Shown here: positions 52,467-58,561 of the stretch, one piece after another
Layout of the letters: every line of letters starts with the position of its first letter
Numbering within the stretch: the first letter of the stretch is position 1
NCBI GenBank assembly: GCA_025358295.1
Contig: JANYJY010000059.1
Location: forward strand, 1 to 64,000
DNA length: 64,000 nucleotides
Reading direction: 5' to 3'
Origin: Gammaproteobacteria bacterium
GTDB lineage: Bacteria; Pseudomonadota; Gammaproteobacteria; Steroidobacterales; Steroidobacteraceae
Translations under genes and position numbers: made by a program
Notes under the pieces: model-generated
The model's database searches: none
The model's input: only the letters and a program-made list of their open reading frames with translations
Told to the model about the DNA's origin: nothing

Positions 52467-54020
52467 ATGCTTGCCACTACCAATCCCGCCGACTGGGTCG
52501 AATCCTGGGCGCGCGTTCAGCCGCTGCAGCCATTCCTTAAGACTCCCGACGGCGGACAAATTACCTACGCCGAGCTTGACCGGCGTTGCGGACGCTTCGC
52601 CTCGGCTCTGATGCGCCGGGGTGTCGTGCCGGGCGATCGTGTCGTCGTTCAGGTCGATAAATCGGTGGAGGCGGTGCTGCTCTATCTTGCATGCCTGCGC
52701 ATGCGCGCGGTCTACGTGCCGATCAACGTGGCAAATACGCCCAATGAAGTCGATTATTTTTTACGCGACTCACAACCGCGTGTGGCCATCATCCGTCCGG
52801 CGGACCGTGCATTGCTCGAACCGCCCGCAACCGTGGCGGGGGTTCGTCACATCGAGACCTTGGGGGCGCAAGGTGAGGGGACGCTTCCCGCGCTCGTGCG
52901 GCAGGCCGATTCCGAACCCGAACTGTGCCGCAGCGGCGACGCGAATTCCCTAGCTGCCATCGTCTATACCTCTGGGACCACCGGCCGCTCGAAGGGTGCG
53001 ATGCTGACGCGCGGCAATCTCGCCTCCAACGCGGCGGTGCTCGCCCACGCATGGCGCTTCACCCAGAACGATGTGCTGCTGCACACTCTGCCGTTGTTTC
53101 ACGTTCACGGTCTGTTTGCGGCCATCAATACCGTGCTCGCATCGGGTTCCAGCCTCTTGCTGCTGCCGAAATTCGACGCGGCCGATGCGCTGCGGATTTT
53201 GCCGCAAGTGACAGTGCTCATGGGCGTTCCCACGCACTACACCCGGTTATTGCATCGGGCCGAACTGAATCTCGAGACGTGCGCCGGTATGCGGCTGTTC
53301 GTCTCCGGATCGGCGCCACTGCTCGAGGAGACTCAGCGTGAGTTTCGGGTGCGTACCGGCCACGAGATCCTGGAGCGGTACGGGATGACCGAGACATTGA
53401 TGAACACATCGAACCCCTATGAGGGCCCACGCAAGCCGGGTTCTGTCGGGCCGCCGCTGGCGGGAATCGAGGTCCGGCTCGCCAAAACCGAAGACGCAGC
53501 CGTCGAGGCCGGTGCGGACGTCACGGGCATGCTCGAGGTCAAGGGCCCGAATGTGTTCGCCGGCTACTGGCGGGACCCCGAGAAGACACGCGGCGAGTTC
53601 ACGTCGGATGGCTGGTTCAAGACTGGGGACCTCGGCCGTATCGATGACGATGGCTATGTCCAAATCGTCGGCCGCGCCAGGGATGTCGTCATCAGCGGCG
53701 GCTACAACGTCTATCCGAAGGAGGTCGAGATGGAATTGGATTCCCTGTCCGGCGTGCTGGAGAGCGCTGTGTTCGGCGTTCCACACCCGGATTTCGGCGA
53801 GGGTGTCACTGCGGTCGTCGTACCGCAAAGCACCGCGCAGTTGTCGGAGAGCGACATCATCAACTCTCTGCAAACCCGTCTGGCGCGTTACAAGGTGCCT
53901 AAGCGCGTCCTCCTGATTGGCGAGTTGCCGAGAAATACCATGGGCAAGGTCCAGAAAAATGTGTTGCGCGCCGAATATGCCTCTCTTTATGTGCCGGGGG
54001 CGCCGCCCGGGCGGGGCTGA
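52467..54020 (+). CDS. matB: Malonyl-CoA synthetase, MatB-like
   Basis: 517-aa acyl-CoA synthetase. ATP loop YTSGTTGRSKGAML, then ERYGMTETLMNTSNPYEGP, which is highly specific to MatB, GDLGRIDDDGYVQIVGR, ISGGYNVYPKEVE and NTMGKVQKN with the catalytic Lys. Makes malonyl-CoA (or methylmalonyl-CoA) from the free acid, ATP and CoA. Start ATG at 52467, 17 bases after the transporter. No malonyl-CoA decarboxylase (MatA) is beside it, so the product may feed fatty acid or polyketide synthesis or be decarboxylated by an enzyme elsewhere. Confidence 0.92.
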   Translation: MLATTNPADWVESWARVQPLQPFLKTPDGGQITYAELDRRCGRFASALMRRGVVPGDRVVVQVDKSVEAVLLYLACLRMRAVYVPINVANTPNEVDYFLRDSQPRVAIIRPADRALLEPPATVAGVRHIETLGAQGEGTLPALVRQADSEPELCRSGDANSLAAIVYTSGTTGRSKGAMLTRGNLASNAAVLAHAWRFTQNDVLLHTLPLFHVHGLFAAINTVLASGSSLLLLPKFDAADALRILPQVTVLMGVPTHYTRLLHRAELNLETCAGMRLFVSGSAPLLEETQREFRVRTGHEILERYGMTETLMNTSNPYEGPRKPGSVGPPLAGIEVRLAKTEDAAVEAGADVTGMLEVKGPNVFAGYWRDPEKTRGEFTSDGWFKTGDLGRIDDDGYVQIVGRARDVVISGGYNVYPKEVEMELDSLSGVLESAVFGVPHPDFGEGVTAVVVPQSTAQLSESDIINSLQTRLARYKVPKRVLLIGELPRNTMGKVQKNVLRAEYASLYVPGAPPGRG

Positions 54021-54069
54021 GCGCCTATTGTGGACCCTTGCGGGTTTCAGAAATCCCGGTAGCTGCCGC

Positions 54070-54086
54070 GCCGGCGTAACGCCGGC
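54070..54086. terminator. GC-rich hairpin between convergent genes
   Basis: Perfect seven-base stem GCCGGCG / CGCCGGC with loop TAA, in the 70-base gap between the MatB-like and DUF3501 stops. No T-run follows, so a terminator role is only probable from position. Confidence 0.45.
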
Positions 54087-54090
54087 CCCG

Positions 54091-54675
54091 CTAATCGAGG
54101 TCGTGGCAGAGGGAGTCGCGAATTGTTCGCGGCAACGGGCTCAGCAGATGCCTATACTCGTTGTGATCGACGCCGATACTCAATGAGGCGCCGCTTTTCA
54201 TTGCTTCAATCATCGAGGCCGACAGCTCAAAACGCAGAAAATGCACCGCCGAGGTCTTGTCGTCGTTTTCCCGCTCCATGTCTTCATCGGCGATTGCAAA
54301 TACCCGCTCCATTTCGCTGACCCGGATCCAGCATCGGTCCTCGACTCCGATTAGGTTCTCGAGCGCAGTACGACGCAACTCGGGGTCTGGAAATTCCAGC
54401 AGTAACGTCACTTTCCAATTGCTGCCGTCCGGAATCAGCGGATTGTAGGCATCCAGTTCGCCTTGGATGCCGTCGCTCTCAAAGATCCGTTCGGCGCGCA
54501 GCATTTCGAGAATTTGATAGCGTATTGTCGTGACATCCTCGAAGCACCAGGTCGCATTGGGCCCGACTTGGACATTGCGCAATTGCTTGTGAGCAATCAC
54601 CTCGCTGCGCAGGCGCCCCCGTTCGCACGCATATTGCTCCAGACTGAGTAGATCCGAGCGCACCAATTTTCTCAC
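54091..54675 (-). CDS. DUF3501 protein
   Basis: 194-aa protein of the uncharacterised DUF3501 family: LVRSDLLSLEQY at the start, RNVQVGPNATWCFEDVTTIRYQILEMLRAERI (in part) and SGASLSIGVDHNEYRH at the end. No signal peptide or membrane helix. Start GTG 54675 overlaps the Fe-S protein stop (GTGA), so both are translated together. The recurrent association rubrerythrin, CCG Fe-S protein and DUF3501 suggests one complex or pathway of peroxide or oxygen defence; the biochemical role is unknown. Confidence 0.87.
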   Translation of the reverse strand: MRKLVRSDLLSLEQYACERGRLRSEVIAHKQLRNVQVGPNATWCFEDVTTIRYQILEMLRAERIFESDGIQGELDAYNPLIPDGSNWKVTLLLEFPDPELRRTALENLIGVEDRCWIRVSEMERVFAIADEDMERENDDKTSAVHFLRFELSASMIEAMKSGASLSIGVDHNEYRHLLSPLPRTIRDSLCHDLD

Positions 54676-56054
54676 GCTAACGCCTCCAGGCCATAAGCCA
54701 TTCTCAGCAAAGTCAGCGGGTGCGTCGGCGGTGATCCATTGTCCAAACCGCTTTGGATTTGGTGCCCCGCCATCGGACAGTCGCTGGCATAGAAATCCGC
54801 GCCGCTTGCCTGAACACGCTCGATGACCGGCTTGCCGATCTTCATGGATATGTCGCGAAATGCGCGCTTGACGCCGTAGGTGCCATTGTGACCCGAGCAG
54901 CGTTCGATCGGCTCCACCGTGGTTCCGGGGATCAGCTGCAGTATGTCGCGGGTCTTCAGTCCGATATTCTGCACGCGCAGATGGCAGGCGACATGGTATG
55001 ACACCTTGCCGAGGGGGCGGGTGAAGTCCGTGCGCAGCAAGCCGGATTTGTGCCGCAGCGCCAGGTATTCGAACGGATCGAAAATGCGGCGCTTGACGGC
55101 TGCTATGCCGGCATCGTCCGGGAACATCAGCGGCAGTTCTTGTTTGAACATCAATACGCAGGAGGGAATTGGAGCGACGATGTCGTAGCCGTACTCGATC
55201 ATCGCCAGCATAGACGGTAAGTTCTTGTCCTTGAGCTCCGCTACCGCCTGCAAGTCGCCAAGCTCCAATTTCGGCATGCCGCAACAGTGCTCTTGCTCCA
55301 GCAGGGCTACTTCGATGCCGTTGTGCTCGAACACCCTCACGAGGTCCAGGCCTATTTCAGGCTCGTTGCGATTGCCGTAGCAGGTCGCGAACAGCGCAAC
55401 TTTGCCGCGCGTCACGCCCGCCGCCTGCGCCGTTGCGGCAGGGCTTACGCGCTTGGCAAGCTGCTTGCGCAGAGTATTGGATCGGTACGCAGGAACGGGC
55501 GCCTGCGGGTGGACGCCGAGGACGGCATCCAGGACCTTGCGACCCATCGAGCTCTTGGTCACGGCGTTGACGACTTCGGCCACCACCGGAATGCCGGCGA
55601 TCTTGCCGACCAAATCCGTGGAGCTCAGCACCTTGTCCCGCCAACCGGTCGCCCCGTCGCGGTTCTTGACGGCCTTGGCGCGCAGCATCAAATGCGGAAA
55701 GTCGACGTTCCAGGGATGCGGCGGGACATAAGGACACTTGGTCATGTAGCACATGTCACAGAGGTAACATTGGTTCACGACCTGCCCATAACTGTTCTTG
55801 TCTACGGCGTCGAGTTCGCCGGTCTTCGACTCATCGATCAAATCGAACAACGTCGGAAAGGCATTGCATAAATTGAAACAACGCCGGCAGCCGTGGCAGA
55901 TATCGAATACTCGTTCGAGTTCCTTTTGCAGCGCGCCGGCGTCGTAGAATTGTGGTTCCTGCCAGCCGAGCGCATGGCGAGTGGGCGCCTCTAAGTTGCC
56001 TTCACGGTCCGAGTTGCTCTGTCCGTCCGACACGGTGGGTCTCCCAACCGACAT
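54672..56054 (-). CDS. CCG-domain iron-sulfur oxidoreductase (GlpC/HdrD-like)
   Basis: 460 aa, soluble. Two [4Fe-4S] ferredoxin motifs: CHGCRRCFNLC near residue 50 and CYLCDMCYMTKCP near 100. Then two cysteine-rich CCG domains: the first with ATCYGN and EHCCGMPKLELGD, the second with ACHLRVQ and RCSGHNGTYG, where Ser replaces the middle Cys of CCG. GlpC and heterodisulfide reductases use such domains to pass electrons or bind a special cluster. ATG 56054; a second possible start six codons upstream. It lies 62 bases after rubrerythrin and overlaps DUF3501, so it is a plausible electron donor to rubrerythrin. Confidence 0.9.
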   Translation of the reverse strand: MSVGRPTVSDGQSNSDREGNLEAPTRHALGWQEPQFYDAGALQKELERVFDICHGCRRCFNLCNAFPTLFDLIDESKTGELDAVDKNSYGQVVNQCYLCDMCYMTKCPYVPPHPWNVDFPHLMLRAKAVKNRDGATGWRDKVLSSTDLVGKIAGIPVVAEVVNAVTKSSMGRKVLDAVLGVHPQAPVPAYRSNTLRKQLAKRVSPAATAQAAGVTRGKVALFATCYGNRNEPEIGLDLVRVFEHNGIEVALLEQEHCCGMPKLELGDLQAVAELKDKNLPSMLAMIEYGYDIVAPIPSCVLMFKQELPLMFPDDAGIAAVKRRIFDPFEYLALRHKSGLLRTDFTRPLGKVSYHVACHLRVQNIGLKTRDILQLIPGTTVEPIERCSGHNGTYGVKRAFRDISMKIGKPVIERVQASGADFYASDCPMAGHQIQSGLDNGSPPTHPLTLLRMAYGLEALA

Positions 56055-56116
56055 GATGGCGGGCTCCAACAATGGAGCCCGCTCGACGCAATCGACAGGG
56101 CGGCGGCCCTACACCC

Positions 56117-56530
56117 CTAGAGGTTATCCAAGGCCTTTTGAAAGCGGTTGGCGTGTGATCGCTCCGCCTTGGCCAGCGTCTCGAACCAATCAGCGATTTC
56201 GCCGAAGCCCTCGTCCCGGGCACTCTTGGCCATGCCAGGGTACATATCGGTGTACTCGTGGGTCTCGCCCGCAATCGCTGCCTTGAGGTTCAAGGATGTA
56301 GCGCCGATGGGCAGTCCCGTGGCCGGATCGCCGACCGCTTCCAAGTACTCTAAATGACCGTGGGCGTGGCCCGTCTCACCTTCGGCTGTGGAACGGAAAA
56401 CGGCCGATACGTCATTGAAGCCTTCCACGTCCGCCTTGGCCGCGAAGTACAAATAACGTCGGTTCGCCTGGGATTCGCCTGCAAATGCATCTTTCAGATT
56501 CTTTTCGGTCTTGCTGCCTTTTAGATTCAC
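56117..56530 (-). CDS. Rubrerythrin without rubredoxin domain
   Basis: 137-aa four-helix di-iron protein reducing H2O2. Iron ligands are recognisable as [33 protein letters not shown] and [12 protein letters not shown]. The C-terminal rubredoxin domain of classical rubrerythrin is missing, so electrons must come from another protein, probably the CCG Fe-S protein downstream. A strong AAGGAGA is nine bases before the ATG. First gene of the three-gene unit; a CRP/FNR-type palindrome is 64-80 bases upstream. Confidence 0.92.
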
Positions 56531-56594
56531 GGCTGTCTCCTTATAGGATTGCTTCCGCTCGACGTTAGACCTTGCTGCCGCGGTAAGTCAAATC

Positions 56595-56610
56595 GGTGAT
56601 CTCTATCACC
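56595..56610. promoter_or_regulatory. CRP/FNR-type palindrome upstream of rubrerythrin
   Basis: GGTGAT-ctct-ATCACC, a perfect six-base inverted repeat with a four-base spacer, extended to seven (CGGTGAT/ATCACCG) at 56594-56611. The form is a hybrid of CRP (GTGA-N6-TCAC) and FNR (TTGAT-N4-ATCAA) sites. Centred about 72 bases before the rubrerythrin ATG, an activating distance. Confidence 0.55.
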
Positions 56611-56758
56611 GCGATAGTCGGCCTCAATCACGGCGACAACCGGTACGCCGCCCGCAACCAGAAGCGAAGCCACGATCGCCACGGGCCGGGCTCTATTTGC
56701 GTTCCTCGGATAAGGCGGTAGTCTTCCGTCGAACGTTGCGCTTCGGTTGGAATAAATC

Positions 56759-58012
56759 GTGCCAGAACCACCCTCTCACCAATCTTTCCTCATTGCGGAC
56801 CATACCGCGAGGTTCGACGAGGACGGTCGATTGCGACCCTGGACCTCGTGGAATGACGCGCTCGACCGAGAAATGAATTTCTATCAGCAATGTCCGTCCG
56901 ATCACGGTTATCCCTATTTCGTGCTGGCCACATTTGTGGATGGAAGTTGGACCCCGGACCCGAATCGCACCGACGCCATTCCCGCGACTCAGAACGGGAT
57001 GGGAATCATCTCCTACGTTAAGTACTTCGAATTGCGGGGCAGCACCGACCTAAGGTTCATGAAAACGGCGTGCGCCATGGGCGATTACCTGGTGGGGGAA
57101 ACATTGACGCCGGCTTCCGGCCGCTATCCGGCGTTCACGCGTTCCACCGTCAAGCGGGATTGGTTTCCGCAACCCGCCGATTGCGGCTCGCAAAGTGATC
57201 GACCCTACGAGATCGAGCCCGACAAGGGCGGCATCGCCGGCTATGCGCTGGTGCTGCTTTCCGCGATCGCGGGAGAGCGGAAATACCTGGACCAAGGCCT
57301 GCAGAACGCACGAGTCCTGGCTGCGAATCAGCAGGTTGGCGACAAATCTCGCTCGCCCTGGCCGTTTCGAGCTGACTTCCGCAGCGGTGAAGCGCGCGGA
57401 CTCGTCTCAGGGAACATGACTTATATTTTGCGTCTCTACGATGCGCTGCTCGACCTTGGCTACGCGGAGTTCAGCGCTCCGCGCCGCTCATTGTGGACAT
57501 GGATCAAGGAATTTCAAATTCCCAGCGCTGCCGCGGACGGCGCGCTATTTGCCCAGTTTTTCGAGGATCACGACACGCCCACGAATCGCTCTGCCTGGGC
57601 GCCGCTGAATCTCGCCCGGTATCTGCTGGAGAAAAAACAAGCCCTCGATGTCGACTGGCTCGAAGACTGTGGGGCGCTGGTCGATTTCGTGCGCAGGACT
57701 TTCACTCACCAAGAATTCGGCATCACGGTTTGTCACGAACAAGACGAGGATCAGCAGGCTTGGGGCGGTATCAATTCAACTTATGGCGCGGTGCTCGCGC
57801 TGTATGCAAAGGCGATCGGGTCCAAGGCCCTCGCCGGCGAGGCGCGGCAAGCGCTGGATTTCACCGTGTATTCCATCGACGAGCTAGGCCGGCCTCGCGA
57901 TCTTTTCAAGAACTCCTCGCCAGGCGGCTGGCAGGAAGACGCCCACACGGACGTCATTCACAACTACGTCGACGCCCTACAGGCTTATCCCGAGTGGGGC
58001 GACGCGACGTAA
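56759..58012 (+). CDS. Uncharacterised protein, probable alpha/alpha-barrel fold
   Basis: 417 aa, no signal peptide. I do not recognise a named family. Repeated pairs of amphipathic helices, each ending in a small glycine turn (GMGIISYVKYFELRG, GGIAGYALVLLSAIAGERKYL, MTYILRLYDALLDLGY, GAVLALYAKAIG), are typical of six-hairpin glycosidase-like barrels such as GH88/GH105. Aromatic and acidic residues (WFPQPAD, WGGINSTYG, GGWQEDAHTD) could line a carbohydrate pocket. GTG start at 56759, with no near alternative. Monocistronic, divergent from the rubrerythrin unit, convergent with the secreted cupin six bases away. Confidence 0.72.
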   Translation: MPEPPSHQSFLIADHTARFDEDGRLRPWTSWNDALDREMNFYQQCPSDHGYPYFVLATFVDGSWTPDPNRTDAIPATQNGMGIISYVKYFELRGSTDLRFMKTACAMGDYLVGETLTPASGRYPAFTRSTVKRDWFPQPADCGSQSDRPYEIEPDKGGIAGYALVLLSAIAGERKYLDQGLQNARVLAANQQVGDKSRSPWPFRADFRSGEARGLVSGNMTYILRLYDALLDLGYAEFSAPRRSLWTWIKEFQIPSAAADGALFAQFFEDHDTPTNRSAWAPLNLARYLLEKKQALDVDWLEDCGALVDFVRRTFTHQEFGITVCHEQDEDQQAWGGINSTYGAVLALYAKAIGSKALAGEARQALDFTVYSIDELGRPRDLFKNSSPGGWQEDAHTDVIHNYVDALQAYPEWGDAT

Positions 58013-58018
58013 ACCCGG

Positions 58019-58486
58019 TCAATGGGCTGGGGCAGCCTCGACCCAAACGATGTCGTACTTCTGATTGAACGTTACCACCATGAGGCAGGGATTCTTGCCC
58101 TGGCAACTGAACCAATGAACGGCTTTGCCCGGCATCACGGCGACGCCTCCGGCGGACAGAGCGACGTCGTGCATGCCTTTCATGCCCGTCGACACGATGC
58201 CCTGGATGACGATCAGCTGTTCTTCGGCTGTGTGGTAATGAGGGGCCACGCGGCAACCCGCCGGCGCCTTCAGCAAGATGGTCGATGGCCCTGTATCGGG
58301 ATTGCCGTTTTCGAGTGCGCCCTGCAGGCATTTGACGTCCCCGTCTTGGGCAAAAATCGCCTCTTTGAGCGGAGTGACACCGTGATGCGCGGCGGGATTT
58401 CCCATAACGGCGAAGGGTAGCAATAACGCCATTGCGAGTGGGCCGGTCAGGCGTTTGCGAGAGAGAAACCGTCCGAAGCTGTTCAT
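58019..58486 (-). CDS. Secreted cupin protein
   Basis: 155 aa with a signal peptide cut near FAVMGNPAAH. A single cupin: VAPHYHTAEEQLIVIQG (metal His-x-His-x4-Glu) and VMPGKAVHWFSCQG (second His). Two Cys in the tail may form a periplasmic disulfide. ATG preceded by GGAAG. Substrate unknown; exported cupins of this sort are often annotated only as cupin domain proteins. Confidence 0.82.
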   Translation of the reverse strand: MNSFGRFLSRKRLTGPLAMALLLPFAVMGNPAAHHGVTPLKEAIFAQDGDVKCLQGALENGNPDTGPSTILLKAPAGCRVAPHYHTAEEQLIVIQGIVSTGMKGMHDVALSAGGVAVMPGKAVHWFSCQGKNPCLMVVTFNQKYDIVWVEAAPAH

Positions 58487-58561
58487 GGGTCTTCCTATGG
58501 GTTGAAGCGCTCAGCCTTGTATACTACCCCGCCATATTCTGCCGTCGCAGGAGACTTCGAC

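Follow-up and report, generated by a model that had tools for sequence, protein, structure and literature searches.

A rubrerythrin, RFO and DUF3501 gene module behind a predicted OxyR-type site in a Steroidobacteraceae genome

The window analysed here is a stretch of 64,000 nucleotides from a Steroidobacteraceae contig. Three of its minus-strand genes, encoding a rubrerythrin (RBR), a CCG/ferredoxin protein (RFO) and a DUF3501 protein, follow one another in the order that a sequence-only reading of this DNA had proposed, and the open reading frames and Pfam matches agree with it (Table 1). That reading had also described a rubrerythrin without a rubredoxin domain and a CCG protein overlapping DUF3501 at GTGA, and both descriptions hold: PF02915 spans RBR residues 10-133 with no rubredoxin family listed, and the RFO stop and the DUF3501 start share a GTGA located exactly at 54672-54675. 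With DUF3501 and RFO genes adjoining rbr, and with an RBR that consists of the ferritin-like domain only, the window locus is a new copy of the known aerobic-type rubrerythrin module RBR-RFO-DUF3501, as the trio was named by Cardenas et al. 2016 (PMC5114695; for this and the other papers cited, statements refer to the portion of the source compared here). The view that these genes form a real, conserved unit tied to peroxide defence is likewise sound, and was already in print (PMC5114695, PMC7050145). The trio has as neighbours plus-strand genes for an MFS transporter and an AMP-binding enzyme (Pfam), a thioesterase gene and, upstream, a plus-strand ORF without a Pfam match; an Rfam scan of 53000-58500 gave no match at the gathering threshold.

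Table 1. Genes and sequence elements of the rubrerythrin locus (window coordinates)
Feature	Position	Strand	Details
DUF3501 protein	54091..54675	-	GTG start overlaps RFO stop; PF12007 1.7e-65
RFO, two ferredoxin-type clusters and CCG-type cysteine domains	54672..56072	-	longest ORF; PF02754 7.5e-16
10-bp hairpin	56059..56082	-	lies between rbr and rfo; lacks a T run
RBR, ferritin-like domain only	56117..56530	-	137 aa; GTG start, AAGGAG ahead; PF02915 4.1e-29
Promoter-like TTGACT-N18-TAACGT	56562..56591	-	directly after the tetrad; -35-like TTGACT at tetrad end
OxyR-type tetrad ATTG-N7-CTAT-N7-ATAG-N7-CGAT	56592..56628	-	15/16 vs ATWG/CWAT
Palindrome GGTGAT-N4-ATCACC	56595..56610	-	exact; within right half of the OxyR-type tetrad

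Cardenas et al. recorded all three genes in 185 of 4461 genomes, RBR and DUF3501 alone in 25 organisms, and a DUF3501-RFO fusion in Nitrosomonas (PMC5114695). Our first genome set consisted of the window's own genome and 59 relatives (n = 60); DUF3501 was matched in 45 of these genomes, RBR in 44 and RFO in 44, with all three present in 41 (40 of the 59 relatives) and none in 13. The sequence-only reading had made its case depend on DUF3501 keeping company with the other two genes, and 41 of the 45 DUF3501-positive genomes match all three. RFO and DUF3501 alone were matched in G023, and RBR and DUF3501 alone in G057, where no RFO match appears genome-wide at E 1e-40. Two genomes match RBR and RFO without a DUF3501 match (G022, in which the RFO match ends at residue 394, and G038, in which it starts at contig base 6), and two others, G045 and G058, hold neither partner and only partial DUF3501 matches, all close to a contig start (about 0.7 kb or less). 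A second set comprised 80 loci and overlaps the first by one locus (L200 = L050); here RFO stands directly before DUF3501 in 75, RBR directly precedes DUF3501 without RFO in three (L150, L169 and L208, as judged on the locus DNA examined), and DUF3501 lies at the start of its contig in two. A phylum sample, for which 20 of 24 non-own hits were taken and four left out, has the order RBR-RFO-DUF3501 in 20/20 loci. At L062, the locus of G057, as at L150, L169 and L208, rbr sits directly ahead of DUF3501 with no RFO between them. A Nitrosomonas MAG carries RFO and DUF3501 as a single fused reading frame (L217:4603-6588).

Among solved chains, 9onm and 4di0 are closest to the window RBR (252 bits), followed by sulerythrin (1j30, 173 bits). 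Ferriperoxin of Hydrogenobacter thermophilus, an RBR relative, is a peroxidase without which aerobic growth stops, and it is reduced in vitro by NADPH and ferredoxin:NADPH oxidoreductase (FNR) (PMC3317640). The assignment of the window RBR as a peroxidase rests on characterised relatives; it would reduce hydrogen peroxide at its di-iron site.

Numbered from the TTG at 56072, the window RFO carries CX2CX2CX3C (residues 59-69) and, starting at residue 102, CX2CX2CX4CP, so that both ferredoxin-type motifs ascribed to the CCG protein are found; of the two CCG repeats ascribed to it, the first is CCG but the second reads CSGH. Among 72 RFO sequences (the window's and those from 71 of the 75 RFO-bearing loci, four partial ones being left out), both ferredoxin motifs occur in 72/72 and the first CCG pattern in 67/72, and the second repeat is C[SA]GH in every one of the 72. 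An RFO start at ATG 56054 or GTG 56033 seems likelier than one at TTG 56072, which sits within the hairpin of Table 1. The window RFO falls below the GlpC equivalog cut-offs (NF008369, 249.8 bits with a cut-off of 278; TIGR03379, 167.9 with a cut-off of 279.9) and has no match among solved chains by sequence at 0.001. The structure model of the L217 fusion has a CCG part similar to LutA, EtfD and HdrB (9a6l, 3.1e-8; 9ojn, 1.2e-7; 8rwn, 4.7e-6); with a pTM of 0.65 and a disordered linker, the same model lends no support to an RFO-DUF3501 interface.

A role for RFO as the electron donor of RBR is plausible and fits both the motifs and the gene order. Electrons would most likely be passed to RBR via two [4Fe-4S] clusters and a CCG-type centre, and the donor that feeds RFO itself would be encoded outside the locus. 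RFO cannot be an obligatory donor everywhere, because it is absent from four loci that keep RBR and DUF3501. These loci (the one in G057 and, in the locus DNA, L150, L169 and L208), together with the in vitro reduction of ferriperoxin by NADPH and FNR (PMC3317640), speak for an alternative in which a general NADPH/ferredoxin reductase feeds RBR and RFO does another job, for example coupling repair of the module to a quinone or thiol pool. An unrelated job would nevertheless be odd for a protein whose position is kept, before DUF3501 in 75/80 loci and between RBR and DUF3501 in 20/20, and we regard this alternative as unlikely. The literature surveyed (titles and abstracts of the matches listed) holds no report that tests RFO as a donor.

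The papers compared here give the role of DUF3501 as unknown. Our structure model of the protein (pLDDT 93.3) has 3fjv as its sole fold match at E 0.001 or better, an entry released in 2009 with function unknown; the next PDB match lies at 0.02, and a comparison with viral structures gave no match under 0.001. Across 39 DUF3501 sequences, E46, Q54, E57, E62, E73, Y77, D132, R135, K140 and H171 are invariant, and a conserved cysteine was sought and not found. With no conserved cysteine, DUF3501 is probably no redox carrier but a non-redox partner, which would probably dock, load or stabilise RBR. A stronger version of this idea makes DUF3501 the core partner of RBR, as a docking or metal-loading factor, and RFO an exchangeable donor: RBR and DUF3501 stay paired without RFO at four loci, 25 organisms have these two only (PMC5114695), and the cysteine-free set of invariant residues includes E46, Q54, E57, E62, E73, D132 and H171. 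Against it, DUF3501 is translationally coupled to RFO rather than to RBR, and is once fused with it; G022 and G038 match RBR and RFO without DUF3501; and the partial DUF3501 matches of G045 and G058 stand without either partner. On this balance we hold the stronger version to be possible, if somewhat doubtful.

The gap between rbr and rfo, in which the window has its strong hairpin, is enriched in perfect stems of at least 9 bp. They occur in 16 of 40 first-set loci, where 0.45 would be expected, and in 26 of 71 second-set loci, where 0.7 would be; elsewhere such stems number 0/42 at the RFO-DUF3501 junction and 2/40 in the 150 bases upstream of rbr. The gap stems of relatives are mostly unlike each other in sequence. 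A hairpin placed after rbr could allow RBR to be made in excess of RFO and DUF3501, which are translationally coupled.

Upstream of rbr, the sequence-only reading had singled out GGTGAT-N4-ATCACC as an oxygen-linked site of the CRP/FNR type. The palindrome is there, exact in every position, and it holds the only GTGA-N6-TCAC core of the window; looser matches to its pattern, with at most three mismatches, number 49 in the window where 24.1 are expected, and 0/100 shuffles reached 49. A CRP/FNR-type regulator bound at this site would couple the unit to the oxygen or catabolite state. Perfect 6-N4-6 inverted repeats are, however, as common in shuffles: the window has 27 of them, and ten mononucleotide shuffles gave 15 to 27 each. 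A search of the window for FNR-like TTGAT-N4-ATCAA, allowing one mismatch, found none, and the relatives do not conserve the palindrome: among 109 upstream regions scored it is perfect in the window alone, the genus sisters reach 10/12 at best with the other 13 at 6 to 9 of 12, and 0/69 second-set loci attain 11/12. We rejected the CRP/FNR site on the grounds that the perfect palindrome is confined to the window and that palindromes of the same shape arise equally often in shuffles, and consider control by such a regulator very improbable. The element that is conserved is the OxyR-type tetrad containing the palindrome, and the palindrome is better read as part of this predicted OxyR site. A promoter/terminator scan reported one terminator-like stem, against 3.1 expected in shuffles, and this stem is the palindrome itself.

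The tetrad is the best site in the window against ATWG/CWAT, the next best scoring 13. Measured against the strict OxyR consensus ATAG-N7-CTAT-N7-ATAG-N7-CTAT (PMC5720770), it matches at 14/16, a comparison in which no other window site reaches 13 and in which the rows compared from the table of that paper match at 10 to 13 bases; the tetrad thus has the sequence of a predicted OxyR-controlled promoter. The window and 14 relatives of its genus were compared over the 200 bases ahead of rbr. A tetrad of at least 12/16, a score that shuffles reach in at most 1.5% of cases, is found in 14/15 of these loci, and one of at least 13/16 in 12/15; L064 is the only genus locus that has none, and two others stand at just 12/16. 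The genome to which L064 belongs (G004; L064, L118) has no tetrad at rbr and a 15/16 tetrad upstream of its oxyR. Beyond the genus comparison, tetrads of at least 13/16 occur in 9/69 second-set loci (including the shared genus locus L200) and in 7/20 loci of the phylum sample. The promoter-like pair that follows the tetrad, or a close variant of it, is present in 7/15 genus loci, namely the window's and those of six sisters; a sigma-70 promoter scan called no promoter, TTGACT-N18-TAACGT included.

The window genome has an OxyR candidate (G000:C36:49865-50755) that scores 301.7 bits, under the NCBIfam cut-off of 329. It carries DGHCLRDQALEVC, in which both redox cysteines are present by motif, and a 13/16 tetrad lies upstream of its gene. 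Tetrads of at least 13/16 precede 7/20 of the oxyR genes examined, 5/14 within the genus. OxyR-model matches at E 1e-40 were obtained in 52/60 genomes, and all of them fall short of the curated cut-off. Because the search also matches control genomes such as Bacillus subtilis, the lower-scoring matches may represent other LysR proteins. In the locus DNA examined, oxyR is found at 3/9 tetrad loci, at 0/47 loci with the Irr-type box described below and at 1/13 others; in Sideroxydans, the trio clusters with oxyR (PMC7852563).

Outside the genus, the tetrad gives way to another element: in 21/25 loci an Irr-type box, TTAGACTnAGTCTAA, stands in its place at 11/14 or better, named after the Irr-box consensus. 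The box was first noticed in these same 25 loci and was therefore tested again on other sequences. The second set has the box in 47/69 loci, the tetrad (at least 13/16) in 9/69, neither in 13/69 and both in 0/69, an absence of overlap with a chance probability of 9e-6 if kinship is ignored; the phylum sample has the tetrad in 7/20, the box in 6/20, neither in 7/20 and both in 0/20 (chance 0.04). At no locus scored were box and tetrad found together. In the surveyed literature (titles and abstracts of the matches listed), no paper deals with sites for OxyR or Irr at the trio.

A candidate owner of the box is suggested by the Fur family. Of the 21 box-type genomes, 19 have a second Fur-family match in the range 60-82 bits (G028 and G052 are without it). 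Neither the window genome nor any of its 22 genus relatives has one; three of these genomes gave no Fur match whatever, and some are only 71-86% complete and could conceal an Irr-like gene. Box and Irr-like gene are associated (19/2 versus 1/18, the genomes being related). The paralogs of G026, G031 and G042, which have the box, and of G034, which lacks it, score best with IrrA, at 110.9 to 141.6 bits and under its cut-off of 150; that of G024, also without the box, scores best with a PerR model, again under the cut-off. Among the four outside-genus loci without a box, G034 alone has an Irr-like gene, that of G024 being PerR-like. PerR sensu stricto had been considered as the owner of this second operator and was replaced by an Irr-like protein, since the four scanned paralogs score best with IrrA. 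Five of the 20 phylum-sample loci have an Irr-like gene upstream of rbr, and four of the five lack the box at threshold. At L237, L238, L239, L241 and L242, the Irr-like Fur-family gene upstream of rbr is on the same strand and has 41-45% identity to the query. Auto-regulation of irr-like genes by the same box was dismissed, with a weak match in 1/20 loci. Irr is reported to bind the promoters of mbfA and of a rubrerythrin-like gene, whose proteins differ from the RBR described here (PMC3413700). Related bacteria appear to use either OxyR or Irr at rbr.

We posit, with fair confidence, that the window holds an OxyR-switched RBR-RFO-DUF3501 module, with RFO as the likely donor, DUF3501 as a non-redox partner and RBR made in excess. 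Peroxide would oxidise OxyR, which would then bind the tetrad, adjacent to the -35-like box on its upstream side, and turn the unit on. More tentatively, and with rather less conviction than we attach to the window module, this arrangement could be one state of a Proteobacterial module wired either to Irr (iron/heme) or to OxyR (peroxide) and never to both, in which lineages without Irr, such as the genus of the window, would have been re-wired to OxyR, DUF3501 would be an obligate non-redox partner, and RFO would be an exchangeable donor, made in smaller amounts owing to the hairpin after rbr. A link to OxyR or Irr gives the module a clear physiological signal, and loci that lack RFO offer a natural experiment on the partner that rubrerythrin needs. 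The trio is also of wider interest, as Gray et al. 2020 describe it from eukaryotes, Andalucia among them, in which the proteins are predicted to be targeted to mitochondria (PMC7050145).

Compared with known systems, the window locus is nearest to the module of Cardenas et al. (PMC5114695), with which it shares the same three families in the same neighbourhood, an RBR without rubredoxin and an RFO that is closest to GlpC; the fused DUF3501 and RFO in Nitrosomonas is common to both accounts, and the OxyR and Irr sites and the hairpin between rbr and rfo are absent from the portion of that paper compared. The Andalucia trio (PMC7050145) consists of the same three proteins, also viewed as one functional module, but these are predicted to be mitochondrial and their genes are physically unlinked, unlike those of the window. 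Ferriperoxin (PMC3317640) and sulerythrin are single-domain rubrerythrins like the window RBR, and ferriperoxin is an NADPH-FNR-dependent peroxidase. LutA, EtfD and HdrB have the fold of the CCG part in common with RFO, as modelled in the fused L217 protein, whereas RFO differs from them in its partners, RBR and DUF3501, and in a second CCG repeat that reads C[SA]GH.
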